The position numbers were made by a program, and so were the translations under genes. This document shows positions 7,315-23,192 of a DNA stretch of 25,991 nucleotides, in pieces (positions within the stretch are counted from its first letter, which is position 1; every line of letters begins with the position of its first letter). Source of the DNA: Saccoglossus kowalevskii (Eukaryota > Hemichordata > Enteropneusta > Harrimaniidae). Location: contig NW_003139398.1 in assembly GCF_000003605.2 (NCBI RefSeq), positions 2,147 to 28,137 of the forward strand, given 5' to 3'. The notes beneath the pieces were generated by a model. It was given only the letters and a program-made list of their open reading frames with translations. It had not been told where the DNA came from and did not search any database.

Positions 7315-7517
7315 TACTGTAGAATACTTTATTTTCACTTGGAATTTATTTTCGCTGAAGGGATGATTCCGTGAAAATAAAATCCAGCGAATGTACTTTT
7401 TTTCCTATATTTCACATTAAACTCATGAAAAATCAGTGAAAATAAATTCCAAGCAAAACGCCCAAAAAGCCTTTTCAGCGAAAATTAATTCCAGCAAAAA
7501 TAAAGTATTCCACAGTA
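7315..7517 (+). mobile_element. MITE family A, copy 1 (complete)
   Basis: The element is 203 bp with imperfect inverted ends about 45 bp long. The left end reads TACTGTAGAATACTTTATTT and the reverse complement of the right end reads TACTGTGGAATACTTTATTT. The interior repeats GTGAAAATAAAATCCAGCG and its complement. TA at both ends suggests a TA target duplication, as in Tc1/mariner-derived MITEs. There is no coding capacity. Related copies lie in helicase introns 7 and 8, in the same orientation. Confidence 0.85.
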
Positions 7518-7520
7518 ATA

Positions 7521-8114
7521 GAATCTCCAACAATTAAATCCAGGTTGGAGGAACTGTATGATGCATCTCCAGTAGTTATCAATAAAATTTTCAGTCTACC
7601 TTACACTACTACAATTTCAACAGAATTTAGAGCCTTTCAGTTTCAAATTATTCATAGATATATTCCAACGTTTTCAAAATTTTTGGAATGGAAGTTAGTT
7701 GACTGCCCTCTATGTACTATGTGTTTCACAGAAATTGGAACCATGGAGCACTTGTTCGTAGAATGCAATTGTGTACAGTCGTGGAAAAAAAATACAGCAA
7801 ATCTAATTTAATTTCAAATATAGTTAGTAATAAACAAAATATTATACTTGGCATCTATGAGGTGGAAAATATCATGTTGAATCATTTTATTTTATTGTTT
7901 AAAAAATACATACACAAATGTAGGGAGGAGCCAAAATCTTGTCTTTTTTTTGGTTTCAAGGCATACATGAATTGGCCTAAAACAAAATGTTATATCATCA
8001 GAAATGGGAGCCACTTAGGATATAGAGAAATGGGTAGCCACTCATTCAATGACAGCAGTCAACAAGGCTCAATTTTATAAAGATCAAGGTAGTAAACTGG
8101 TTAAAAATGTTTGA
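7521..8114 (+). pseudogene. Dead 3' end of an L1/Tx1-type LINE reverse transcriptase ORF
   Basis: The frame containing 7545 encodes FRAFQFQIIHRYIP..., then CPLCTMC and GTMEHLFVEC. This is the Cys-Cys-His-Cys arrangement of the zf-RVT region at the C-terminus of L1-like retrotransposon polyproteins. A shift at the A8 run (7785-7792) moves the reading to a second frame: NIILGIYE.., LNHFILLFKKYIHKCR, FFGFKAYMNW. These match the usual LINE tail (LGI..., ILLAKYYIYKC, FK.YL). A second shift near 8030 leads to KWVATHSMTAVNKAQFYKD and a stop at 8112-8114. The element is 5'-truncated and doubly frameshifted, so inactive. Its left edge lies four bases from MITE A copy 1, which may have inserted into it. 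Confidence 0.82.
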
Positions 8115-8863: not shown

Positions 8864-8956
8864 ATGGAGGAAGAAGTCAAGAATCAATCGAGCGGTTCAG
8901 AGACTGAAGTCAAACACAAAAAGTCCAAAAAATCGAAGAAAGATGCGAAGGAAAAG
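8864..8956 (+). CDS. DDX21: DDX21-like exon 1
   Basis: 31 codons, beginning [13 protein letters not shown] and then Lys-rich. It ends GAAAAG before GTACGT (phase 0). It encodes the start of the charged N-terminal tail. Confidence 0.9.
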
Positions 8957-11900
8957 GTACGTCGAATCGCCAAATGCGTCATGGCGTTCTCATGTATAGT
9001 AAATATTGTTGTGCAATGTTCGTATGTTTTGTGTTTCTTTTTTTTTCCTGCAGCAGTTTTTATGTGGGATTGTCGCTGTTTTCGTGTTGATCGTGTGTAG
9101 TATTGTATAAATCAAATTATTGCCTCGATCCACATGGAAACCCATTTCCGGTTAAACGTAGTTAAAATTTTCAACACTAAAATCACTATGCGATACGCAG
9201 GTGGTGTAAAAACGTTATATATTTTTGTATGGAGAGTCTCAGACTGTCTGATTTGTTTCGATTAATATGATTCTAGTTTCTGCTGACTATTTTTTTTAAT
9301 GTTTACTAACGTTAGCATAGTACCGGTATACTAGTACTGTAGTCCATATGCGTGACCCGTAACGGTCATACATCCTGGTACTTTGTGAAAACATTGCTAC
9401 ACTATAAGGCCAAAAAAACAACAACTTTTGTTGCCCTCAAGTCGGAAAGTTGAATAATTGGGTCGGTCAGTCAGATTTTTATTTTTTTTAAACTCATGAA
9501 AACTAAGGGTATCATAAATAGCCGAGGTATATGGGGGGGAACGCGACCCGATATTTCATATTTTTTGGTCGGTGGGCAACAAAACAATTTTTATTTTGGC
9601 CTAACAATCAACTGCAATAATTTCCAATATTATTCATTCAGTATTTTCTATGTTTTACTGTTTTTGATATTCAATAGCAATGTTCCATTATGGGGGGGGG
9701 GTCTGAGAAATTCCCTCCACCAGATATTACCAGGATGTGTTACTATTTGGAGGTTGACATTAAACTTTATACCGTGGCTTCAGGTATATAAAAAGAAAGA
9801 TGCGAATTATACCAAGTAACGATCATCAATAAATTTGGACGAGCGGGTGACTTTTTAAACATTGTAATGGCACTTCCCAAAATAATGCATGCACAGATAC
9901 ACTATCAATTCAGTGGACAAGTGTCAAAGTTTACTGACAAAATAAGTAGAACCAACTCAAGAAGAATGTATTCCCAAGAATCATGTCCAGTAAATCCTGA
10001 AATTGATTACGCAAATTTCAACAAAGCTCTGACTCAAGGTTTGAAATGCAGTAAAACCTGTCAAAACCAACCTACTGTTAGAACCGATCAATTTATGTAG
10101 CCCCGAAATTTTCCCTAGACGCCTGTGTTAAAACAACCTGTGAATGTAACGATGCTTTTGATTAGCCAAAGCCATGCATTGACGCGAAAAACACAAGTAA
10201 ATTTATTTCCTCCACTACTGGGGTTTGTAAATCGTGATTTAAAGAAAATTCAACTTTAAATCGTGACATTCGTCAAAATATAAACATTTACATGTTTAAG
10301 CAAACATTCAGGTGGACTTCTTGGTGATCAGCGATGTCTGTGATGGTACGTCGGCTGCGCTGCTTGTTTACTGATCATGCAAAGGGCTGCCTTTGTTCTG
10401 CTCGACGGTGACGTTGTTGCTGCTACAAGTCACAGCGTGAACTTGATTTTAACTATAGACCTTATGTTTTAACGAATCGTTTTTATATATTTGACGTCAG
10501 TAAAAATATGGGTACGGTAATGCACTTTTCTAGGCCACATGTTCATTTTTAATCATGATGAAAAAACGTGCAACTTTTTGTTCGGTGGTGTTATCACCTC
10601 ACGGTGACCTGCTGTGATGACAAGCCAAGATTTTCACAGGTGCACCTTAAAACAATGATCCAGTTACCCTGAGTACGATGAATATCTTCGGAAGACCTGT
10701 TTTGTAAACAATTCTTTGTCTGGGACCAGGGCACACAGGAAATATAATGATTTCAGATAACAGGGCGCGGCGCCCTGTTAAAACCCCTCGTAGAGAACCC
10801 TGCACGGAAATGCTTGATGGAATTATTGACCCATCGGGTCAATGGACACATGCCTCTCAACTAATATGTCACAAACATCATGGCGGGCTGTGTTTTTGAT
10901 CGAAGCGATCGAGTGATCAAAAATATCTACTCTTGATAAAACTAAGTCAAATTTTACTTTTATTTCATATCAAAAAAACAAAGTAACATTTTTTGCTTGG
11001 CATCATGACTGAGTAACCGGTAAGAGGAATTATTGGTATAATCGGTGTATAACATCGCGAAGTAAGTTATGTCACATCGTAACTTTGTAAGTTCAAAAGT
11101 TTTATTTGTTCGCTTATTACTGTGAATATATACGTTTTAGAAATTGATTGTACGAATAATAAATTACAACAATACTCCAAATAATTATGTGTTCGATTTT
11201 TTGAAGGAGAATGTATTTGGAGTAAATAACATCGTGAAATTTTCCTGGTTTCAAATGTGTTTTATTTAACTTTTTACAATAGACATTAATATTAAACAAT
11301 AATATATTTGTTTCTGTTTTTTAGTCTGCAGCATTCGCATTTCGAATAAATTTAATTTTTTAATTCAAACTCTTCTAAATTGTGAAACATAATGTCTTAA
11401 TGTCCAAAAATATTTGCACTGCGACCGAACTCATTAATATTCATTGATGATTAATATTCATATAGCTCATTAATATTCATGACCGTCCGGCACTCGTGTT
11501 GGGCTGGTGAGATCCCTGTACGATAGTTAATAAAAAAAATGGCTGTCAAACGAGTATAGTGGCACCATTGTATATTTTAGTTGTTGTTTACAGGGTAATA
11601 TTGATCACTGGATATTCAAATTGTTGGTTAAAATTGATTAATGCCAAACAGATCATCATTATCATTCTGTCAACTTTTAGTGGCGTATCCTCAAATTTTC
11701 CCAACTCAAGTATAGTAATTATTATTATTATTATCCCATAGAAGATCAAAAAAGATAAGAAAAATAAGAAACGAAAGCACGAAGATGAAGCAGAAGCTGA
11801 AGCTGAAAGTTCTGAAGTGAAAATTAAAAAGAGCAAAAAACACAAGAAAGAGAAAAAAGATGATAGTGGTAGTGAGAGTAGTAACACAGAGAAGCCGACA

Positions 11901-14900
11901 AAGAAAGAAGTAGTAGATGTGACCAGTAGTAACCATAGTAACAATGACAAGACTGAAGTTACAGAGGAACCAAAGGTATGTAATTGAGACTGATCAGAAA
12001 AATTATAATTATGTGAAAATTCTGTTTTTCATTTATCGTCATGACAACTATATTGTTTTTAATCGTAGGAATTAACAAAGGAAGAGAAAGCAGGAGCATT
12101 TAGTAATTTTCGACTTTCACCACAGACGATAGCTTCATTGAAAGGCGAGTATATCATCAGTGATCGCTTCAATGTGTATTCTGAATTGTTATTTCTTCAA
12201 ATCATTGTGTTTGGAATAGATCCAGCGTTCAAAATGAATCAATATAATAACGTCGGGTTGTAGCTAATTCAATAAATAACCGACTTGTTTTGTGCAGAAC
12301 TACCAAATTTTTACATTCTGTAGCAAAGTGTCATGTGCAAAGGGATCTCCTCGTTTGTTGACCCAGAATGCATTTTGAGTTGGCTGCAACACTGCTACTT
12401 TTTTTGCTCTTGTGCGCTATATGTTTACTGAGAATTTAAATGGTGGCCATCAGAAATCCAATATGTATTTGTGATCTTAAACCAAAGAATCACTGCAGTT
12501 TTCATGTTGGATCATATTTTGCTGTGAAATGTATTAGTTGAAATGCAACAGAGATGATTCAAAACAGGTTTTTCACAGGTTATTCTCTGTCGTAGCTTTG
12601 CCTTCATCAATCAATTACATGTGCACTGATTTTGAAAAAAACAAATTGACTAAATATTTTTAATATTCAAGTTGACAAAATCATACAAAGGCAATTGCCG
12701 CATTTGTGGATTTTATTCTTCTAAATTTGTATGTTTTCAACTTTCAGCTCGTAGCATCACTCACTTGTTTCCAATTCAAGCTAAAACATTCGACTACGTT
12801 TATGACGGACATGACGTGATTGCCCAAGCAAGTAAGTATAGACATGATTTTCTCATCTATTGTAAACGTTGTGTGACTTAGCAAAAATTCAATGCTTAGT
12901 TATTAATATTTTAAAGGTTTAATATACTACGAAGAATGTATGCGATGAATATCTCAATATAAAATCGCATTAATAGGCCACTTTCATGACCTCTGCAAGC
13001 CTGTGTGCTACACAGTGAATGTTAATCTTCTTGGTATGTGTTCATAAATAAAATTATCACCCTAGTTTTTTCGCCGACCATCACAGCAGTACCATGAGAC
13101 CAAGTGTCTAAAATCCAACTGTTTGGTTTCAAAAAACTGTGTTGTGCTATTTGAAGAGTGCCTTTAAATAAAGCATCAATATTCATTAAGAAATCTTCAC
13201 CTGCACACATATTGCTGTGAGTAGCAGAATTGAATAAAACAGATAAATAAACTGTGAAGTAAATTATCTAATTATGAACATTCTGTTACTTACAATACAT
13301 TGGTTGACGGTTGTCTATATATATCAAATACAAGTAATTAGTTGTTTGAGAATTGCAGCATCTGTTGTTTCATCCACTACAGAATAAGCTGAACCTGATC
13401 AAATGTCTTGCAAACTATCACTGATGACACTTGTCATGCTGATTTAAAAGCTTCTGGGACTCAAATATTAACTCGCATAAACTACAAAACCAGACTTTAA
13501 AATTTGATTATAAATTTGATTGAGTATTTGACCTCAAAGTTGAAATATACACATGCCCAAGACAAAAGATCGCAATTTTTTATTGAACATGCAATGGGTC
13601 TGGTCATTTTATATTTCAACCAGCAAAAAAATGTTTGTGGATGCGAACTGAAAATCACAAAAAAAAAGATTTAAATTAAGTTTAACCTTAGTGTCGACCA
13701 CCATGATTCATCACTTGCACAAAATGAGACCTAACGAGAAAGAACAATTTTCACTTTTAAAATATGGTCTGCATTTCCACAGTTCAATCGTCTCACCTTG
13801 GCCATCTTGACCTTACCCTCAACCTCTTTGGATCTTTGTGATTCACATGCTGTCAGCGTTCTTGCGTTTTTTAGGCATCTGCTCGGGCTAGCGACTGGAA
13901 AGGAATCAACTGCGGTCAGGGTGGTAGTGAGCGATGATGACTTTTTAGTGAGCCAGAATAAAAACAACAAAGATGAACTTTTTGACAAAGTGCTAGCATA
14001 GTGTAGTGCTAACGAAGCAAAGTGGCATGAACTTACTGTTCTTGCGAAATTAATCTTTTTTTATGCTTTTTAGCACGAACTAATAAATCTGTTTTGTTTC
14101 TAGGGACCGGTACTGGCAAGACATTAGCGTTTGCGTTACCATTGGTTGAAAAATTGAAAAACACAGAATTCAAAGCTGGGCGTCCACCTCAAGTGTTAGT
14201 GATGGCACCAACCAGAGAATTGGCCAAGCAAGTAAGTTGTCTTGTAGTAATTTAGTATTTCATGAAGCTTAACTCTCTTCTACTTCAATTCAACTTTTAG
14301 TCCAGTTTCACAAAATATTTATGTTTAACTCTCCGAGCAACCTAAAGTCAACTTCAGGTACCATCCACAAAATAGTTTCATTTATATTCTGCTCTTTCCA
14401 CATGAAATGTTACGAAAATTTCAAATTTCTATCAAAATCTAGAAAATTAAGACTGAATTCAACGAAAATTACAGAAAAATTTAAACAAGAAAAAAAATTG
14501 CCTTTAAGCCACCTTTTTATTTCAGATTTTTTAAACCATTGAAATTTCCCTATTTCTCCGAGAAGCTTCCAATAGGTAAAACAAAAAGTTGATTGAATGA
14601 TGAATTAAATTTGTAATTTGGAAGTCTATTTGTAATGTATAGTCATCTCGTGTTTGGAAGAAACTGTCCAAGCCAACCCTGCAAATATTAATCCAGTATT
14701 GTGTGTATATACCATACATGTGTACAATGAAAAACTAAATGGCCACATGTCTGCCATATTGGATTGGATCACACCCAATAAGTATTATTAATTGTAAACA
14801 CACTCATGGTATTAGAGTTGAAAAATTGTCATGACAAAAATAGTCGCCTGGTGGCCATATTGGATTGAATGAAAAAAAAATATTTCATATCTTGTTGGTG

Positions 14901-17900
14901 GTATGGTCAGCTTTGAATAGAATTGGTTAATTTATGTGAGGTATTGATACAAACAACAACAAAACCCTTTTTTTGATTAATTAAAATGCAAACTGATGTG
15001 ATGACCTTGTGTGGAATATTTGTACTAAATTTGAAAGAAAACATTTAAGCAATGATTGGCAGAGAAATGCAGAACCCAAATTATAAGTTTCAGACTTCAT
15101 TTCATCAAGGACTTAAAATGTGGTACGACTTGAATATTCCATTGATAATCAATAATAAAACTGAGAATTCCTCTTATATGGGATATTAAACTTACCACTT
15201 TATTTTCAAAGGTTTCTGAAGATTTTCAGGCATCGAACCCAAGACTTTCAACTTTGTGTGTTTACGGCGGTACCGCGTACTGGCCACAGGAGTCTGCAAT
15301 CCGGCGTGGTGTCGACGTCTTAGTTGGAACACCGGGAAGAATTCTTGATTACGTCCAAAAAAACACTCTTAACTTAAGTCAACTGAAACATGTGATTTTG
15401 GATGAAGTGGATAGAATGCTGGATATGGGTTTTGCAGACACTGTTGAAGAGATTCTATCAGCATCGTACAAGATGGGTAAATATCTCTCTTGTGGTTCAT
15501 GATCAGTAAATGTCTCCCTCTAGTGGTACAAGATCAGTAAATGTCTCCCTCTAGTGGTACAAGATCAGTAAATGCCTCCCTCTAGTGGTACAAGATCAGT
15601 AAATGTCTCCCTCTATTGGTACAAGATCAATAAATATCCCCCCCCTTTTGTGGTACAAGATCACTAAATGTCTCCCTCTACTGGTACAAGATCACTAAAT
15701 GTCTCCCTCTACTGGTACAAGATCACTAAATGTCTCCCTCTATTGGTACAAGATCAGTAAATGTCTCCCTCTATTGGTACAAGTTCAGTAAACGTCTCCC
15801 TCTATTGGTACAAGATCAGTAAATGCCCCACTCCCCCCCTTGTGGTACATGATCAGTAAATGTCCCCCTCTTGTGGTACAAGATCAGTAAATGTCTCCCT
15901 CTTATGATACAAGATCAGTAAATGTCTCCCTCTTGTGGTACAAAAAAAGTAAATATCTCTCTTTAGTAGTATAAGATCAGTAAATGTCTGGTGATTCATG
16001 ATCAGTAAAAATCTCCCTCTGGTGGTACAGGAAAAGTAAATGCATCTTTCTGGTAGTACAAGATAGGTAAATGCTGGTTGGAATTCTTTCTAAGCTTTCT
16101 TTGATTACATACTTACAGATAACCCTGGTGAAAACCCCCAGACGCTGTTGTTCTCAGCAACCCTACCAGAGTGGGTTTATAGGACTGCGAAAAAATACAT
16201 GAAAAGCGAGATTAAAAGAGTTGATTTAATTGGACAACAGAAGTTGAAAACTGCTACCACAGTTGAAGTAAGTACAAATTGATTAATTAAAAAGGCATTT
16301 TTTTGGTTCAAATAGTCTAATTTATCGTAAAATAAAAGTATTGTTTTGACAGTAATTATTTATTCAAGAAATGATGTAAAACTCAAAAGCATGTTATCCT
16401 GGTTTACGTATGTTAACATGCGCACTGAAGTTTACATTGCTGTATTTATTTTTGCTGAAAAAGTGAATCGAAGAAAATAAAATCCAGCCAAAATACCTTT
16501 TTTTCCTGTTTTCACTCTTCATTCAACTCGCCAAAAAACAGTGAAAATAAATTCCACACAAAGAAGTCAAAATGTCTTTTCAGTGAAAATTAATTCCAGC
16601 TAAAATAAAGTATTTTACAGTATTGTATCAAACAATACTTTATTATTTACCATCAAAACATTATTTTACAAGCTACGCTGTCGAATTTGTCGAGCGGAGC
16701 TTATCATATGAGTGATTGTCCGTCGTCGTCCGTGTCAATGTTTTACTTTTTCAACTTCTTCTTAAAAACTATAAGCCTGAATGCTTTTATATTTGGTGTA
16801 TATGTACCTTGGGTAGACCTCTCTCAGATTTGTTCATTTCATGATATCTTCAATTCTCTAATTTTGGTGAATATTTTTGTCATTTTTGGTAAAAAGTGAT
16901 ATTTTCGACTTCTTGCTAAAAACTGCAAATCCAATTGCTTTGATATTACATATATAGGTACTAAATGTGGACCTCTCTCAGATTTGTTCATTTTGTAATG
17001 ATATCTTTAATTCTCTAATTCTGATGAATATTTTTGTCATTTTTAGTAAAAAGTGATATTTTCGATTTCTTGTTAAAAACCTCAATTCTGATTGCTTTGA
17101 TATTACATATATAGGTACTACATGTGGATCTCTCTCAGATTTGTTCATTTCATGATGATATCTTCAATTTTCTAATTTTGATGAATATTTTTGTTATTTT
17201 TGGTGAAAAGTGATATTTTCGACTTCTTGTTAAAAACAGCTAGTCCGATTGCTTTGATACTATACATATTGTTCATTTTCTAATGATATCTTCTGTTCTT
17301 AATTGAAATGTGCATTGCTAACAGCGGAGCTATCTCAGCCGAGAGGCTGCTTGTTTTATTTATCAAGATGCATTTTTGAAAAAAAAACCTACGGTAGTTA
17401 TTCACATTTCTTCTTTAACATTTTTTTTTTCGTGTTTAATTCTACAAACATTTAATGTTATATAAAAGCAGCTAATGGGAAATTCCTAACTTAAACAATC
17501 TTTTGTTTGATGTCTGTCTGTCACCATGGTGACACCATTCATTGTTCATGTGTCATACATCATCAGATTGTTAAAAATTAAAATCTGTAATTCTTTTCAA
17601 AATAATACTCATTTGCATTAAAACGAAGTTGTCAATTTGTAAATCATTATAATTTCAAAAACCAAATTCCAAGAATTTTGGAAAATTTTTGAAAATCTTA
17701 AAATTTAGTAGCAGTGATAAATAGCAGATAAATAAAAACTGAGTTGCTGCCACCAGTCATCACCCTTTTGACACTGTTGGGGTCAGAGGTCAGATACCTT
17801 GGTTAGTATAAAGGTCAAAATGACAGAAGATAATTGCATGTTTAACCATTTTCAGTTTAATCGAGACAAACAAGTTTTATTTATTCTTAGTCAAATATCT

Positions 17901-20900
17901 GTTCATAAGTTTCTCCTTGAGTTAAAAATTAATTTTTATAATTTTATTAAAAAATTAATCAACCTCCATATAAAAACCTTGTCTATAAAGGACCATTTTA
18001 TAAGTACCTTGGGTGGCTGCTTTTCTTTGGTGTGGTACGTCACAAAAAGTTCTAAGATAGCACCACTGTACATGTATTTATATGGGCTTTGCGTGAAGCA
18101 CCTGTCGAAGAGTCATTAAAGACAACTAAATTTGACAAAACTGCACAAACTCAACTATGAGACAATCCTGAACAACCAAATTTATATATGTAGGGGTAAT
18201 CTTGTTACACTGTTCAGGAGTCTCAACTTCTAGCCCAAAATACAGTTTATCGTGAGTTTTCAACCGCTGTGGTTGCCAGGCAGTAAAATACCAATATGCT
18301 CACTGCCGCCAATACAAAGGTTCGTCTATTATTAAAAATTATTGCAATGAACCTTCTGTTTTCACTAGCATTTAGCAATCAGATGCCATTATCGGCAGCG
18401 AGCAGCGACTATCAGTGATGTCGTACAAGTATACAGCGGTAAGCACGGCCGGTGTATGATATTTACAGAAACGAAGAAAGACGCGAATGAAATGGGATTG
18501 AGTTCAAGTATACGACAAGACGTTCAAGTGTTGCACGGTGACATTGCCCAGAACCAGCGAGAGATCACATTAAAGGTAATAATGAAATGCATTCTGGGAG
18601 TTGTGGCTCACTGCTCTAATTTTGCCAATAGAGCCAAGTTAGTTAAATCCCTAGTCGCTTCTACACATAAAAAAACCCAACTACTGTAGAATGCTTTATT
18701 TTCGCTTGGAATAATTTTCGCTATTTTTGCTGAAGGAATGATTCAGTGAAAATAAAATCCAGCGAATATACATTTTTTCTTCTATTTTACATTTAACTCG
18801 TCAAAAATCAGTGAAAATAAATTCCACAGAAAACACCGAAAAAGTCTTTTCAGCGAAAATTAATTCCAGCTAAAATAAATTATTTTACAGTATTTTTATA
18901 TGTATATCTCGTTGTGCGAAACGCAGTGTCATGACGGTGGCGTTTTTAAGGTGTTAAATATGTGTATGGTTGTGAATGTCAGTTTAAACGTAATTTATAA
19001 TTAATTTAGACACAAGTTTGTTCACATTTTCATCTTTAATTTCATTAATTAAAATTGACCAAATAGACATAATTTCTCACTACCCACAGGGCTTGATCAA
19101 AATCATAGAAAAAATCTGTCAAAAATTAAACAAGTTTATTTTGTGAACGGCAACCAAAGTTGACTGTTGACATGCAAATTGCTAAAATGCTTATGTTAAC
19201 TTATAAATATATTTTTGAAAAATAGGCTGTGCCATCTCTGCTGTAGTTTTTTCAGCCCATTCATTATGTTTTAGTATTTCCGAAACCGGTATAATTTTTT
19301 AATAATCAATCCATGAATTGAAATTGTGATTTGATTTATCGCAGGGTTTTCGTGATGGTAAATTCCGTTGTCTCGTGGCTACTGATGTTGCTGCCAGAGG
19401 TCTAGACATTCCTGAAGTTGATCTGATTGTAATGTGTGAACCTCCTAAGGTAAGATAATTTATGCTGTTTCTGTAGCAGTAGACAGCTAGCTAGAAACTA
19501 ATCGCTTTGAGAATATGTTTGCTGTATTGTGGGTAATGTAATGTAAATCTTTTATTTTTAAGATTTGAAAATTTGAAGGTACTCAGAGCAAAATAACGTG
19601 CAACTCACTGACTCCCTAGAACCCCAATGAAAGTCACTGTGACTCCCTAGAACCCCAATGAAAGTCACTGTGACTCCCTAGTACCAACTTGAAAGTATTT
19701 GACTCCCTTGAGTCCCAGTGAAAGTTACTGTGACTCCCTGGAACCCCAATGAAAGTCAGTGTGACTCCCTAGTACCACATTAAAGTCACTGATTTTCTGG
19801 AACCTCAGTGAAAGTCACTGTGATCCCCTACTACCATATTGAAAGTATCTGACTTCCGAGAGTCCCAGTTACTGCAACTCCTTAGAACCCTAATGAAAAT
19901 TACTGTGGCTCCTTAGAACCCCACTGAAAGTCAGAAACTCACTGTCTTTAGATCCCAAATGAACTGTTTTCTGCTACAAAGTTTCCAGACACAAAATTTG
20001 CAAACATTTGCAAAACAAATGTCTCGTGATTTACAGTATATTCTATGGTTTGTTTCATTTTGACAGGATGCTGAAAACTATATTCACCGATCTGGCCGTA
20101 CTGGTAGAGCCGGCAGAACCGGTGTGTCTGTGTGTTTTTATAAACCAAATGAGGAACATGTTTTAAAGCTTATAGAAAGAAGAGCGGTAAGTATATTGTG
20201 ATTACATTTACAACAATAACACTAAAAACATGCAAAACATTACATCCATGTGCATGTGTTAACCACTTCACAGCCATCAAATTTGTAACCTTTCACAACC
20301 TCTTCACAACCATCAACATTTGTAATCTTCCACAACCTCTTCACAGCCATCAACATTTGTATCCTTCCACTAAGTAGTGAAATTATTGAAATTTCTTTGT
20401 TTTGTTTCTAAATTGAGATCCTTGAAACTTTCATCTAGTCTAAAAGTCTCAATTAAAAATGACTATCAGGAATTACTTTCCGGTGCTTCTATTCAGTCAT
20501 TGGGTATTAATATACATGTTTGACCTTTGACCGCCATTATTTTTCACAGCAGCAGTTTTTTATGTGCATCTTTTTATGTATTTTTCTGTAATTTCGCTAT
20601 TTTGAACCAAATTGACATAATTTCTGATTGGATACAGGTCTTGATCGAAATTTCAGAAACACAAAAGAAACTGCGTTAATTTGTGAAATATGAGAAAAGT
20701 GGACTTTGGAATTCAGAGCTCTTAACCTGTACCATTCAATAGAACAAAATTTGTACTTCTGTGTTGGTTTCTTTTTCATTGATAGTTTTCTTTCTTTCAG
20801 GGCATAAAATTTAGAAGAGTTGGTGCCCCTCAACCTGAAGATATTATAAAAACATCTGCAGACGATGCACTCAAGTAAGTAGTTTTATTAATTCGTATGT

Positions 20901-23192
20901 AATATTCCCTTTCTGAATTTTTCGTAATTTCTTTTTGTATTTTTTTTGTGAGATTTGATCAAATAAACACAATTTACTATTGGCTTGAGGTCTTGATCGC
21001 AATTTTGAAAAAAATTACATGGTAAATTTGACAAAAGTTGACTTTGCCGCTTTTAGGATTATCCTATCTGCTCTTGAGTAGCGTATGCACTTCCTAAAAT
21101 GATGAGGGTGTATTATTGTTAAAATGAGTTTGTAAATGAGTATTTAAAATTCATCGTGCATATTTAAATCCAGCATGCAATTCTAATGCAACTTTTGGTT
21201 TAAAAATGGCCGGAATGATTCATAATGTATTCACATTTCAGATCTTTAGATGCTGTACCCGAATCTGCCATTAAACTTTTCCATGAAGCTGCAGAAAAAC
21301 TGATAGAAGAAAAAGGGCCAGTTGAGGCCCTGGCAGCAGCTCTAGCACTTGTATCAGGAGCTACTGATGTCACATCAAGATCACTGCTCAATTCTGATGA
21401 GGTTTGTTTTGTTTTTTGTCATTTTTGTACATCTACAATCCAATTCAAGATGGCTGACATGCAGCCGTAATTGATGGAAATTGTTGCATGTTTATTTAGA
21501 CTACTGTCCCAGATTTGAGGTAATATACGACATATATACCCAAATGTAGTTCTGGTTTAGTGCCATTTTATTATACCAACTTCATTTCAAATGTAATTCT
21601 GAGACGAGGTATTAAAAATGCAATTAACTTTAATGCACTAAAAATCCTGTACAATAGGGATACAGCATCCGAAAAGTACTATTTGCAACCGTGATTAAAT
21701 GGCTCTGGAACTAGCATACAATGATTAGATACAGTAGGTAGTAACACAAATTCTCACACATATTTTGGCATTGCTTGGTTTATTTATGTACATTCTTTTT
21801 AGCAGCAACTATATTATTTGTTAAATTGTCCTAATCGATAGAATAAAAATAAAATACCGGTGCCATTATTACTATCCGCCACGTTTTGAGAAACAACAAA
21901 ACTGTCAGGTTCACCAGTAAAAGCCCTTATAGAAAGTATAAAAGTATCTTTTTTATTTTTGACATCATTTTTATAATTTGGAAAAAATATTATTTTTTTT
22001 CTCTTTTATACACAAAATATTGTAATGTTCTTCTTACACTCTATGTCAGAATTACAAAATAATATTTTTGGCGATTTCATTCGACAGCAGCATTTATTCC
22101 TACATTTGTACTATCCACAATCGGGTCTACTTTTAGACATGAATGCAAAACAGTGGTACCTTATAATCACGTATGTTATAATAGTTTGCCTGCCGTGGTT
22201 GTCTAAGTGTAAACCTCTGCTTGAGTATAAATTTAAAGCATTTTACAACAAGTCATTTATTCGATTATAAGCAGTTGTGTTAGTTTTTATTTGAAACTTC
22301 GTTTAGAATATACTTTCGTTCTTCCAAAATGTGCAGACCAATATTCATGTGAAATGCAGGGTTGAATGCTGTTCCACTTAGTAAACGCACCCAAGAGTGA
22401 TTAGTGACCCCGGGGCGTAACGGCTGATCCTCAAGTTAATTTGAACGATGCTAGGCGATGAAGACACTCGTGGCGATTTGTTATGAATAAATTAGCATAA
22501 ATTATCGCTCAGGAGAAGTTATAAATTTTATCCCAGAGGGGTTGACACTCGAACAACTACAGTAATTAAAAACAAAATCAAAACAATGTTTTGAGGCAAT
22601 CAAAATGCTGGGAGAATAAAATAACATTTTGTTTTCATGTTTAGGGTTATACAACTTATATATTCAGTTGCCAGACAGAAATGAGAGCGCTTTCCTACGT
22701 CTGGAGAGCCCTTGGTAACCAGATACCGGAAGATGTCAAGGAAAAGTTCAGAGGAATGAGAATGTGTACGAATACAAAGAGCGCCGTGTTCGATGTACCC
22801 AACGATGTGATTCCCAAACTTGAGGTGAGTGACTGTCTTCAACTCTAATAATTCATAATAATTAAAAAAAATGTGTTCATATGCAAATGAGACATTGATG
22901 CTTAACCAATCACTTGTGTTCTTTGGCACCAATGAAAACAACCAATTCTTGTCTGTATTTGCAGTCACACTGGGTTAACAGATGGGGATGTACTCTGGAA
23001 CAAGCTCAGCATCTACCAGATATTATCGAGACAAGCACTCAGGGAAGAAATGGATTTGGACGAGGTGGATTCGGACGAGGAGGATTTGGTGGGCGTGGCG
23101 GACGTGGTCGAAAGTTTGGTGGGATCAGTCGGCGAGATAAACCTTCTGCTGGAAATAGAGGCTTTAAAAATAACTCATTTTTTTCGAACTAG
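8864..23192 (+). CDS. DDX21: DDX21/DDX50-family DEAD-box RNA helicase, complete gene (14 coding exons, 700 aa)
   Basis: This is an ATP-dependent RNA helicase, orthologous to the ancestor of vertebrate nucleolar helicases DDX21 and DDX50, which act in rRNA transcription and pre-rRNA processing. Exons join in frame to 2103 coding bases. Domains: a Lys/Glu-rich tail (1-115); Q motif with Gln145; motif I ARTGTGKT (162-169); Ia APTRELA (197-203); TPGR (245-248); motif II DEVD (269-272), the variant typical of DDX21/50 in place of DEAD; SAT (306-308); IV MIFTETK (373-379); LHGDI (398-402); [11 protein letters not shown] (424-433); [12 protein letters not shown] (454-463); a GUCT domain (about 515-620); and a Gly/Arg/Phe tail (about 652-678). 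Human DDX21 is somewhat longer (783 aa), mainly in its N-terminal repeats and FRGQR tail. All catalytic residues are present. The start at 8864 has a strong Kozak context (ACCATGG). An in-frame ATG at 8840 (8 codons earlier) has a poor one. Intron phases are 0,0,1,1,0,1,0,0,0,0,2,0,0. Confidence 0.95.
9407..9603. mobile_element. MITE-like element, AGGCCAAAA inverted ends
   Basis: The left end has AGGCCAAAA followed by a T/A-rich tract and TTGTTGCCC. The reverse complement of the right end repeats AGGCCAAAA..TTGTTGCCC and GACC/GTCGG. It is about 197 bp with GGGTCGG motifs inside and has no coding capacity. Confidence 0.65.
10758..10923. repeat. Cluster of three perfect short hairpins
   Basis: Stem 1: TAACAGGGCG / CGCCCTGTTA (10758-10767 and 10771-10780, 3-base loop). 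Stem 2: ATTGACCC / GGGTCAAT (about 10825-10843, loop ATC). Stem 3: TTTTTGATC / GATCAAAAA (10893-10901 and 10915-10923, 13-base loop). All are exact inverted repeats in intron 1. Confidence 0.75.
11742..11975 (+). CDS. DDX21: DDX21-like exon 2
   Basis: 78 codons (residues 32-109). It is a Lys/Glu/Ser-rich tail with [18 protein letters not shown] and SGSESSN, a probable nuclear/nucleolar targeting region. The acceptor is CCCATAG and the donor is AAG|GTATGT. Long minus-strand frames here are shadows of the biased composition. Confidence 0.9.
12069..12144 (+). CDS. DDX21: DDX21-like exon 3
   Basis: 25 codons plus one base (residues 110-135). It encodes [19 protein letters not shown], the lead-in to the Q motif (human: GAFSNFPISEETIKLLK). 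It ends AAAG before GCGAGT, a GC donor. The nearby GT (after GGCGA) would run into a stop in exon 4, so the GC donor is the consistent reading. Confidence 0.9.
12145..12747 (+). other. DDX21-like intron 3, GC-AG type (603 bp)
   Basis: The donor AAG|GCGAGT matches the strong non-GT consensus of GC-AG introns (AG|GCAAGT). The acceptor is CAACTTTCAG. No repeat or RNA gene was seen inside. Confidence 0.85.
12748..12831 (+). CDS. DDX21: DDX21-like exon 4
   Basis: Residues 135-163. It encodes [15 protein letters not shown] (Q motif) and GHDVIAQA, leading to motif I, which is split by intron 4 (A|GG). The donor is GTAAGT. Confidence 0.94.
12832..14103 (+). other. DDX21-like intron 4 (1272 bp)
   Basis: GT-AG intron. 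I looked for box C/D snoRNA structure around TGATGA at about 13422 and 13933 and found no convincing D box or terminal stem. The short open frames at 13731-14001 have no similarity. Confidence 0.85.
14104..14231 (+). CDS. DDX21: DDX21-like exon 5
   Basis: Residues 163-205. It encodes TGTGKT (Walker A, Lys168) and [11 protein letters not shown] (motif Ia). The donor is CAA|GTAAGT. Confidence 0.95.
14232..15211 (+). other. DDX21-like intron 5 (980 bp)
   Basis: GT-AG intron, AT-rich. The phrase GGCCA(C/T)AT..GCCATATTGGATTG occurs twice (about 14740-14770 and 14850-14870), a hint of a small decayed repeat. Otherwise I see nothing. Confidence 0.8.
15212..15476 (+). CDS. DDX21: DDX21-like exon 6
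   Basis: Residues 206-294. It encodes [20 protein letters not shown] and [20 protein letters not shown] (motif II). It ends ATGG|GTAAAT (phase 1). The last bases of the exon are part of the first unit of the following minisatellite. Confidence 0.95.
15467..16079 (+). repeat. 31-bp minisatellite, about 19-20 units, starting in exon 6
   Basis: The consensus unit is ATCAGTAAATGTCTCCCTCT plus AGTGGTACAAG, 31 bp. Units 6 and 12 are lengthened by C-runs and unit 17 is shortened. The first unit, TACAAGATGGGTAAATATCT..., covers the exon 6 end and its 5' splice site. About 15 units keep GTAAAT or a close variant. One has AATAAAT and three have ACTAAAT. The array fills most of intron 6. Confidence 0.93.
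16119..16267 (+). CDS. DDX21: DDX21-like exon 7
   Basis: Residues 294-343. It encodes [13 protein letters not shown] (motif III SAT) and [15 protein letters not shown], matching the human sequence closely. The acceptor is ACTTACAG and the donor is GAA|GTAAGT. Confidence 0.95.
16440..16622 (+). mobile_element. MITE family A, copy 2 (left end degraded)
   Basis: It shares AAAATAAAATCCAGC, CAGTGAAAATAAATTCCA and TTTTCAGTGAAAATTAATTC with copies 1 and 3, in the same order and orientation. The outer left end is missing or mutated. Confidence 0.8.
16680..17370 (+). repeat. Tandem repeat of about 155 bp, 3.5 units, in intron 7
   Basis: CTCTCTCAGATTTGTTCATT-like blocks begin near 16827, 16981 and 17138 (GATTTGTTCA positions; spacings 154 and 157). 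Shared segments are GTGATATTTTCGACTTCTTG, AATTGCTTTGATATTACATA and GAATATTTTTGTCATTTTT. A partial fourth unit follows at about 17274. The array is bracketed by GCGGAGCTTATCATATGAG and GCGGAGCTATCTCAGCCGAG, probably ends of a larger dispersed element. Confidence 0.85.
18369..18575 (+). CDS. DDX21: DDX21-like exon 8
   Basis: 69 codons (344-412). It encodes [31 protein letters not shown] and [15 protein letters not shown], the start of the second RecA domain. The donor is AAG|GTAATA. Confidence 0.95.
18682..18892 (+). mobile_element. MITE family A, copy 3 (complete)
   Basis: 211 bp flanked by TA. It starts CTGTAGAATGCTTTATTTTC and ends with AAATTATTTTACAG. It has the same inner motifs and orientation as copy 1. 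Confidence 0.85.
19051..19165 (+). repeat. Dispersed intronic repeat B, copy 1
   Basis: ATTGACCAAATAGACATAAT, then GGGCTTGATCAAAATC, a gap, then TTTGTGAACGG and AAAGTTGACT. The same series recurs in introns 10 and 11. Confidence 0.55.
19345..19449 (+). CDS. DDX21: DDX21-like exon 9
   Basis: 35 codons (413-447). It encodes [20 protein letters not shown] and DIPEVDLIV (motif V). The donor is AAG|GTAAGA. Confidence 0.95.
19602..19962 (+). repeat. 31-bp minisatellite, about 12 units, in intron 9
   Basis: The consensus unit is GACTCCCTAGAACCCCAATG plus AAAGTCACTGT, 31 bp, with shorter variants of 23-30 bp. Variant units recur in order (a 'TACCA..TTGAAAGTAT' unit, then a 'GAGTCCCAGT' unit, then 'ACTGT/CAACTCC'), so higher-order duplication is likely. 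Confidence 0.9.
20067..20186 (+). CDS. DDX21: DDX21-like exon 10
   Basis: 40 codons (448-487). It encodes [17 protein letters not shown] (motif VI with arginine fingers) and [19 protein letters not shown]. The donor is GCG|GTAAGT. Confidence 0.95.
20266..20372 (+). repeat. 36-37-bp minisatellite, 3 units
   Basis: CTTCACAGCCATCAA..ATTTGTAA.CTT(T/C)CACAACCT repeats with starts at 20266, 20302 and 20339. Confidence 0.85.
20601..20709 (+). repeat. Dispersed intronic repeat B, copy 2
   Basis: TTTGAACCAAATTGACATAA, AGGTCTTGATCGAAATTTC, AATTTGTGAAAT and AGTGGACTTTG occur in the same order as copies 1 and 3. Confidence 0.6.
20801..20874 (+). CDS. DDX21: DDX21-like exon 11
   Basis: Residues 488-512. 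It encodes [20 protein letters not shown], the end of helicase core and linker (human: [20 protein letters not shown]). It ends CTCAA|GTAAGT, phase 2. Confidence 0.94.
20951..21047 (+). repeat. Dispersed intronic repeat B, copy 3
   Basis: AGATTTGATCAAATAAACAC, GAGGTCTTGATCGCAATTTT and AAAAGTTGACTTTG lie in intron 11 (20875-21241, 367 bp). Nothing else was seen in this intron. Confidence 0.6.
21242..21401 (+). CDS. DDX21: DDX21-like exon 12
   Basis: Residues 512-565. It encodes [20 protein letters not shown] and [17 protein letters not shown], almost identical to the human DDX21 segment before the GUCT fold. The donor is GAG|GTTTGT. Confidence 0.95.
21402..22644 (+). other. DDX21-like intron 12 (1243 bp)
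   Basis: GT-AG intron. An 81-codon frame at 22025-22270 has hydrophobic stretches but no recognisable relative. No RNA gene or clear repeat was seen. Confidence 0.8.
22645..22824 (+). CDS. DDX21: DDX21-like exon 13 (GUCT domain)
   Basis: 60 codons (566-625). It encodes [43 protein letters not shown], matching the GUCT domain of DDX21/DDX50 (human: GFVTMILQCS, AWKELKEQLG, VKGMVFLKGKLGVCFDVP). The donor is GAG|GTGAGT. Confidence 0.93.
22965..23192 (+). CDS. DDX21: DDX21-like exon 14 (RGG tail and stop)
   Basis: 75 codons plus TAG. It starts SHWVNRWG (human: KWHDSRRWQ) and continues to a tail of [20 protein letters not shown], then a basic end, FKNNSFFSN. The tail is a compact RGG/FGRGG box in place of human FRGQR repeats, a likely RNA-binding and methylation region. 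The preceding 140-bp intron 13 (22825-22964) carries an octamer ATGCAAAT by chance or design. Confidence 0.93.
   Translation, partial: SHWVNRWGCTLEQAQHLPDIIETSTQGRNGFGRGGFGRGGFGGRGGRGRKFGGISRRDKPSAGNRGFKNNSFFSN

Follow-up and report, generated by a model that had tools for sequence, protein, structure and literature searches.

The plus strand of the window (the whole stretch of DNA analyzed, 25,991 nt) carries a 14-exon gene model at positions 8864 to 23192, which forms one open frame of 690 residues plus a terminal stop and encodes DEAD, Helicase_C, and GUCT domains (Pfam). When exons 6 to 10 were joined, their best PDB match was Nucleolar RNA helicase 2 (6l5m/6l5n, E = 3.5e-119), which we take to be the human protein. 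Based on these domains and this best PDB match, in a comparison that left the paralog DDX50 aside, the gene looks like DDX21 (nucleolar RNA helicase 2), and the source of the DNA is most likely an animal. Upstream of the gene lie an inositol-polyphosphate-kinase-like reading frame (positions 1035 to 1922, Pfam IPK) and a reading frame with a zf-RVT match (positions 7446 to 7811, Pfam PF13966, E = 2.4e-07) that is probably the remnant of a non-LTR retrotransposon.

Exon 6 of the DDX21 model (positions 15212 to 15476, plus strand) is 265 nt long and ends in phase 1 (...TCG TAC AAG ATG G) at residue 293; the DEAD match extends to residue 313 (Pfam). It is followed by intron 6 (positions 15477 to 16118, plus strand, 642 nt) and by exon 7 (positions 16119 to 16267, plus strand), with both exons placed by the gene model and the 6l5m alignment. 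The true 5' splice site of the intron reads TGG/GTAAAT (positions 15477 to 15482, plus strand), i.e., it has a G at position -1 and an A at position +5, and the unique 3' end of the intron, which contains the acceptor (cttacag), occupies positions 16080 to 16118 of the plus strand in the gene model. Splicing at 15477 preserves the full DDX21 frame in this model. Elsewhere in the gene, intron 3 (positions 12145 to 12747) is apparently of the GC-AG type (AAG/GCGAGT ... CAG), and the one GT alternative that we tried by hand for its donor, at 12149, breaks the frame.

Most of intron 6 is a minisatellite. TRF identified a 31-bp unit present in 19.6 copies at positions 15466 to 16073, and wrap-around alignment of positions 15466 to 16079, limits that were preset by the stretch handed to the alignment, resolved 20 plus-strand units of ~31 bp with the consensus GTACAAGATCAGTAAATGTCTCCCTCTAGTG. 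Fifteen of these units are 31 nt long, while the others measure 29, 34, 37, 25, and 24 nt. The array accounts for ~94% of the intron, which would be only ~57 nt long if units 2 to 20 were removed. Unit 1 takes in the terminal 11 nt of exon 6 (GTACAAGATGG) together with the GTAAAT donor at 15477, and a GT is retained at the donor-equivalent place in 15 of the 19 later units (units 2 to 20), as GTAAAT in 13 of them, GTAAAC in one, and GTAAAA in one. The G of this GT has been lost in units 6 to 9 (positions 15619 to 15745, plus strand), where unit 6 reads ATAAAT and units 7 to 9 read CTAAAT; two separate changes account for this loss (column mean, 1.45).

A previous sequence-only reading of this DNA had proposed a ~31-bp minisatellite at the junction of exon 6 and intron 6, with the exon end and the real donor in its first unit, a donor-like GTAAAT in most later units, and three CTAAAT units plus one ATAAAT unit. 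TRF and the unit alignment agree on this array, and the unit counts given above bear out the remaining details. The same reading had described the copied donors (decoys) as a ladder with 31-nt steps. This description holds approximately, in that the units are about 31 nt long, but unit 1 measures 29 nt and the decoys lie 29, 60, 91, 122, 153, 187 ... 590 nt from the true donor, so that the first is at +29, not +31, and the steps are not all 31 nt. In unit 6, the mutated donor core also creates AATAAA, the poly(A)-signal hexamer, at positions 15629 to 15634 within intron 6.

The repetition is far beyond chance. At up to 2 mismatches, the 13-nt tail of the unit had 15 matches in the window, 13 of them inside the array, compared to 0.20 expected. 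We compared the last 11 bases of exon 6, the exonic part of unit 1 (positions 15466 to 15476, plus strand), with the unit consensus, the register being fixed by the donor GT. Nine of the 11 bases were identical, making GTACAAGATGG the likely source of the array's TACAAGAT. The same 11-base comparison yielded 1 to 6 identities for the gene's other 12 donors, and none of the 2,829 GTs located elsewhere in the window (plus strand, 1,545; minus strand, 1,284; array excluded) reached 9 of 11, the best having 8. Over the aligned columns, unit 1 is 86% identical to the consensus, and the homology starts at 15466 with no upstream continuation by eye.

The exonic TAC AAG encode Tyr-Lys, which is present at the same place in solved DDX21 (LSVAYKKDSE versus LSASYKMDNPGE). 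Since these codons are common to solved DDX21, we infer that the coding sequence is the source and the array the copy, and the end of exon 6 is most likely where the array came from. The birth at an exon-intron junction that the sequence-only reading had suggested is supported by the 9-of-11 exonic homology, the 0 of 2,829 other GTs that match it, and the agreement of the source codons with solved DDX21. One may regard unit 20 (GTACAAGATAGGTAAATG-CTGGTTG) as a complete unit that, like unit 17, has lost an internal segment. Under this deletion reading, inspection weakly suggests that the array ends in phase with its start, as a plain tandem duplication predicts.

An alternative is that the array came from elsewhere, with a mobile element or satellite landing or recombining where its sequence happened to match the exon end. 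In favor of this, many other arrays occur in the window, and no source for the tail TCTCCCTCTAGTG was seen elsewhere in the gene. The match to the exon, however, takes in coding bases common to solved DDX21, in register, and within the window the tail is confined to the array except for two matches at 2 mismatches. The search of the window with the 13-nt tail provided no support for a mobile-element or satellite origin, which we consider quite improbable. An exact 23-nt piece of the unit had 0 matches in a viral contig collection, a resource that is of little use for an animal.

Returning to a local origin, the array would have been seeded by tandem duplication of the DDX21 junction between exon 6 and intron 6 and would then have grown by turnover of repeat units, through slippage or unequal exchange, until it filled most of intron 6. 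Neighboring units are more alike than units in shuffled order, with only 55 of 20,000 shuffles of the 20 units reaching the observed value (76 of 20,000 when units 2 to 15 were analyzed alone). This likeness fits local duplication and turnover after the birth of the array. The locus appears to be a clear example of a minisatellite with a seed still legible in the adjoining exon and source codons that match those of a distant DDX21.

We scored the copied donors in three ways: by pairing with U1 in a fixed register; with a human donor matrix; and with a matrix derived from the 11 other GT donors of the DDX21 gene, a small set in which positions were treated as independent. U1 pairing gave -6.5 kcal/mol for the true donor and -6.7 kcal/mol for unit 20, whereas the 14 GT-containing units among units 2 to 19 reached only -1.8 kcal/mol. 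The human matrix gave 4.4 for the true donor, 0.5 for the commonest decoy, and 5.9 for unit 20; on this scale, 229 of the gene's 691 other intronic GTs reach the score of the commonest decoy. The gene-trained matrix dissented. It scored the true donor at 0.7, the commonest decoy at 1.2, units 16 and 19 at 6.1, and unit 20 at 4.8, such that, with a matrix of 11 sites, 13 of the 15 in-register decoys ranked above the true donor; real donors, in contrast to the independence assumed by this matrix, are strongly dependent in their use of -1G and +5G. The true donor was the lowest of the gene's 13 donors by this matrix, whereas by U1 pairing the donors of exons 1, 5, and 12 were weaker.

The bases flanking the copied GTs differ from those at the true donor. 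GG precedes the GT of the true donor, but CA precedes the equivalent place in 16 of the 18 interior units (units 2 to 19) and AA in the other 2, and none of these units has a G at -1. Given that CA or AA has replaced GG, the decoys should compete poorly. The first of them (unit 2, TCA/GTAAAT, positions 15506 to 15511, plus strand) is of the commonest form and carries neither -1G nor +5G, with a U1 pairing of -1.8 kcal/mol. In all, 14 of the 15 in-register decoys lack both guanines, whereas all 13 donors of the gene, including the GC donor of intron 3, carry at least one of them. One published human sample had 6 of 1,990 introns (0.3%) lacking both guanines, and the exon-end G is almost invariant where +5G is absent (PMC8283771). 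Two major donor classes, AG//GU and //GURAG, are described for Arabidopsis and four animals in another study (PMC9803359). The decoys (TCA//GUAAA) belong to neither of these classes as given there, unit 20 (AG//GUAAA) belongs to the first, and the true donor (GG//GUAAA), taken strictly, also falls outside both.

The last unit (unit 20, positions 16056 to 16079, plus strand) contains TAG/GTAAAT at 16067, which alone among the array's GTs scores at least as well as the true donor by all three measures. An off-register site, CTG/GTGATT (positions 15991 to 15996, plus strand), which spans the end of unit 17 and the start of unit 18, passes both matrices (6.8 by the human matrix and 3.3 by the gene-trained matrix, compared to 4.4 and 0.7 for the true donor) but pairs less well with U1 (-5.2 versus -6.5 kcal/mol). 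Judging from these scores, 15991 is the other plausible candidate donor besides 16067. A second GT occurs at the start of the units (TG/GTACA.), where 14 sites between 15526 and 16025 have a -1G and a U1 pairing of -4.1 kcal/mol, which is stronger than that of the in-register copies.

Whether the array is enriched in donor-like sites depends on the yardstick. Using the true donor's score as the cutoff, we compared all 58 GTs at positions 15480 to 16079 with those of the other introns per 600 nt. By the human matrix, 2 array GTs (15991 and 16067) passed compared to 2.13 per 600 nt elsewhere; by U1 pairing, 1 passed compared to 0.83; and when all three scores had to agree, 1 passed compared to 0.52. 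In contrast, 21 array GTs passed by the gene-trained matrix, compared to 7.69 per 600 nt. A coarse rule (-1G or +5G, with a purine at +3) selected 18 sites compared to 4.99; 14 of these 18 were the unit-start TG/GTACA. sites. Enrichment is absent by U1 pairing, by the human matrix, or when all scores must agree.

By U1 pairing and by their lack of -1G and +5G, most of the copied donors look too weak to be used. The explanation that we consider quite likely is that a minisatellite born by duplication of the junction is spliced out whole, from the donor at 15477 to the acceptor at 16118, so that the first donor would be the one used in the RNA. The donor-like motifs within the units would then be relics of their source, mostly too weak to function, and the array is probably passive. 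It follows as a caution that a copied GTAAAT is not automatically a working decoy; copies that have neither -1G nor +5G are predicted to be largely inert. We also considered the invariant TAAA core of the units as a sign of selection and rejected it, since the longest invariant run spans 4 columns, has a permutation P value of ~0.057 to 0.058, was picked post hoc, and excludes the G of the GT.

If a decoy were used, the outcome would be the same for every in-register copy. Any transcript that bypasses the true donor would run into an in-frame TGA at positions 15500 to 15502 (plus strand), and the first in-register decoy, at 15506, already lies behind this stop. Because the stop precedes them all, use of any in-register decoy would yield an identical truncated product that breaks off before the DEAD domain is complete and lacks all that follows. 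With intron junctions lying downstream of the stop, established rules lead us to expect that such a product would be subject to nonsense-mediated decay (NMD). The sequence-only reading had held that decoy use would shift the frame and meet early stops. The early stop is indeed present, but the frame shift is irrelevant, as the TGA comes before every in-register decoy.

The same reading had counted ~15 decoy 5' splice sites and proposed that they could act as a tunable splicing or NMD control. In its strongest form, this proposal would have the decoys compete with the true donor, lead to the same truncated frame at the 15500 stop, and thereby lower DDX21 output according to the length of the array. 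The stop ahead of all in-register decoys suits such a switch, as do the gene-trained ranking, in which the true donor ranks last among the 13 donors and lies below 13 of the 15 decoys, and unit 20, which is no weaker than the true donor by any of the three scores. In addition, where two sites more than 40 nt apart are both occupied by U1, preference is said to go to the downstream one (PMC5933811). These points are countered by the decoys themselves: 14 of the 15 lack both guanines, a state reported for 0.3% of 1,990 human introns, and pair with U1 at only -1.8 kcal/mol, while the only decoy that is strong on all scores lies 590 nt from the true donor. Furthermore, the loss of the GT from 4 of the 19 later units implies that the GT is not being kept. 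The 15 GTs exist as described, but a ladder of usable donors is mostly unsupported by the sequence, and we regard the switch as improbable.

Minisatellites that span a donor are a known kind, with ABCA7 and IFI6 in humans as close precedents for the DDX21 array, which starts in the end of an exon, includes the true donor, and keeps a donor-like GT in 15 of the 19 later units. In ABCA7, there is an intron 18 VNTR with a 25-bp unit and 23.7 copies (592 bp) in the reference, alleles range from ~12 to ~427 units, and both exon 19 skipping and retention of one unit, which gives an out-of-frame transcript, were observed (PMC5954066). As in the DDX21 array, the first GT of the ABCA7 array is described as the true donor (of exon 18), the donor region is repeated, and the unit length is not divisible by 3. 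The ABCA7 array reportedly starts at the GT itself, whereas the homology of the DDX21 array reaches 11 nt into the exon; moreover, the allele range and splicing effects reported for ABCA7 were observed there, whereas the DDX21 array is known from one sequence. The one-unit retention seen in ABCA7 counts in favor of a switch, and with this precedent, some decoy use in DDX21 is conceivable at the level of RNA.

In IFI6 (6-16/G1P3), two downstream units of a minisatellite are reported to be used as donors, with three mRNAs as the result (Turri et al. 1995, cited in PMC4526556). The IFI6 repeat resembles the DDX21 array in that repeat units supply several splice donors, which in DDX21 are candidates. 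The IFI6 unit is reportedly 12 bp long and keeps the frame; in contrast, the ~31-bp units of the DDX21 array break the frame, and a stop precedes the in-register decoys.

Two further classes of repeat bear a likeness to the DDX21 array. Internal tandem repeats at exon-intron boundaries of human duplicated genes have units of ~30 bp and ~4 units on average (PMC2812944). They share with the DDX21 array their minisatellite-scale units, their position at an exon-intron boundary, and a change in intron structure, but they were found, as reported there, through variation between human paralogs, whereas the DDX21 case is one 20-unit array viewed apart from any paralog. Intron gain by tandem duplication of AGGT segments, as outlined in PMC4974935, likewise involves duplication of a segment that bears a splice site. 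In that process, however, the duplication supplies the acceptor too and a new intron is made, whereas the DDX21 acceptor at 16117 to 16118 lies beyond the end of the array (16073 by TRF, or 16079). Among the matches listed in our searches, which covered mainly open-access literature and seldom queried DDX21 by name, none described an array of this sort in DDX21.

The absence of -1G from interior units 2 to 19, four of which also lack the GT, permits one more reading. In this case, the array would record selection against competing donors, with only a donor-crippled copy being amplifiable, and its length would tune the splicing of exon 6 as in ABCA7. We consider this combination unlikely. Together with ABCA7, the array nevertheless suggests a question, namely, whether, across genomes, donor-spanning arrays persist mainly if the amplified unit carries a crippled donor.

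A structural role for the RNA of intron 6 was also considered and rejected. The intron 6 RNA (positions 15477 to 16118) folds less stably than shuffled versions of itself (z = +3.5), with 20 of 20 dinucleotide shuffles being at least as stable, perhaps because the repeats limit pairing. No inverted repeats of at least 12 nt were found at positions 15200 to 16400 with a 9-base seed, and nothing in the window matched Rfam at the gathering score. A minus-strand gene was likewise set aside, since the 78-amino-acid frame at positions 15853 to 16089 looks repeat derived by inspection.

It is very improbable that the units serve as binding sites for DNA- or RNA-binding factors, rather than as splice sites, through a CTCF-like core on the minus strand or the pyrimidine-rich UCUCCCUCU in the RNA. 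The motif CCASYAGRKGG, which we take to be the CTCF core motif, occurs 6 times in the window compared to 0.03 expected, and all 6 occurrences are in the array (positions 15516 to 16025, minus strand). This excess has to be read against the fact that tandem copies are not independent, that the motif was picked after the sequence had been viewed, and that only 6 of the 20 units match. By eye, the flanks also misfit the longer consensus. The CTCF-like sites are thus a weak lead.

Other tandem arrays were detected in the window with TRF. A second array with a 31-bp period lies in intron 9 of the gene model (positions 19609 to 19933), away from an exon edge, and its sequence is different by eye. 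Intron 7 contains a 157-bp unit present in 2.9 copies (positions 16816 to 17269), beside which lies GTCGTC-rich sequence that has the look of a dispersed repeat by eye. Finally, an array with periods of 127 and 250 bp (5.9 and 2.9 copies, respectively) occupies positions 2007 to 2749, between the IPK-like frame and DDX21.
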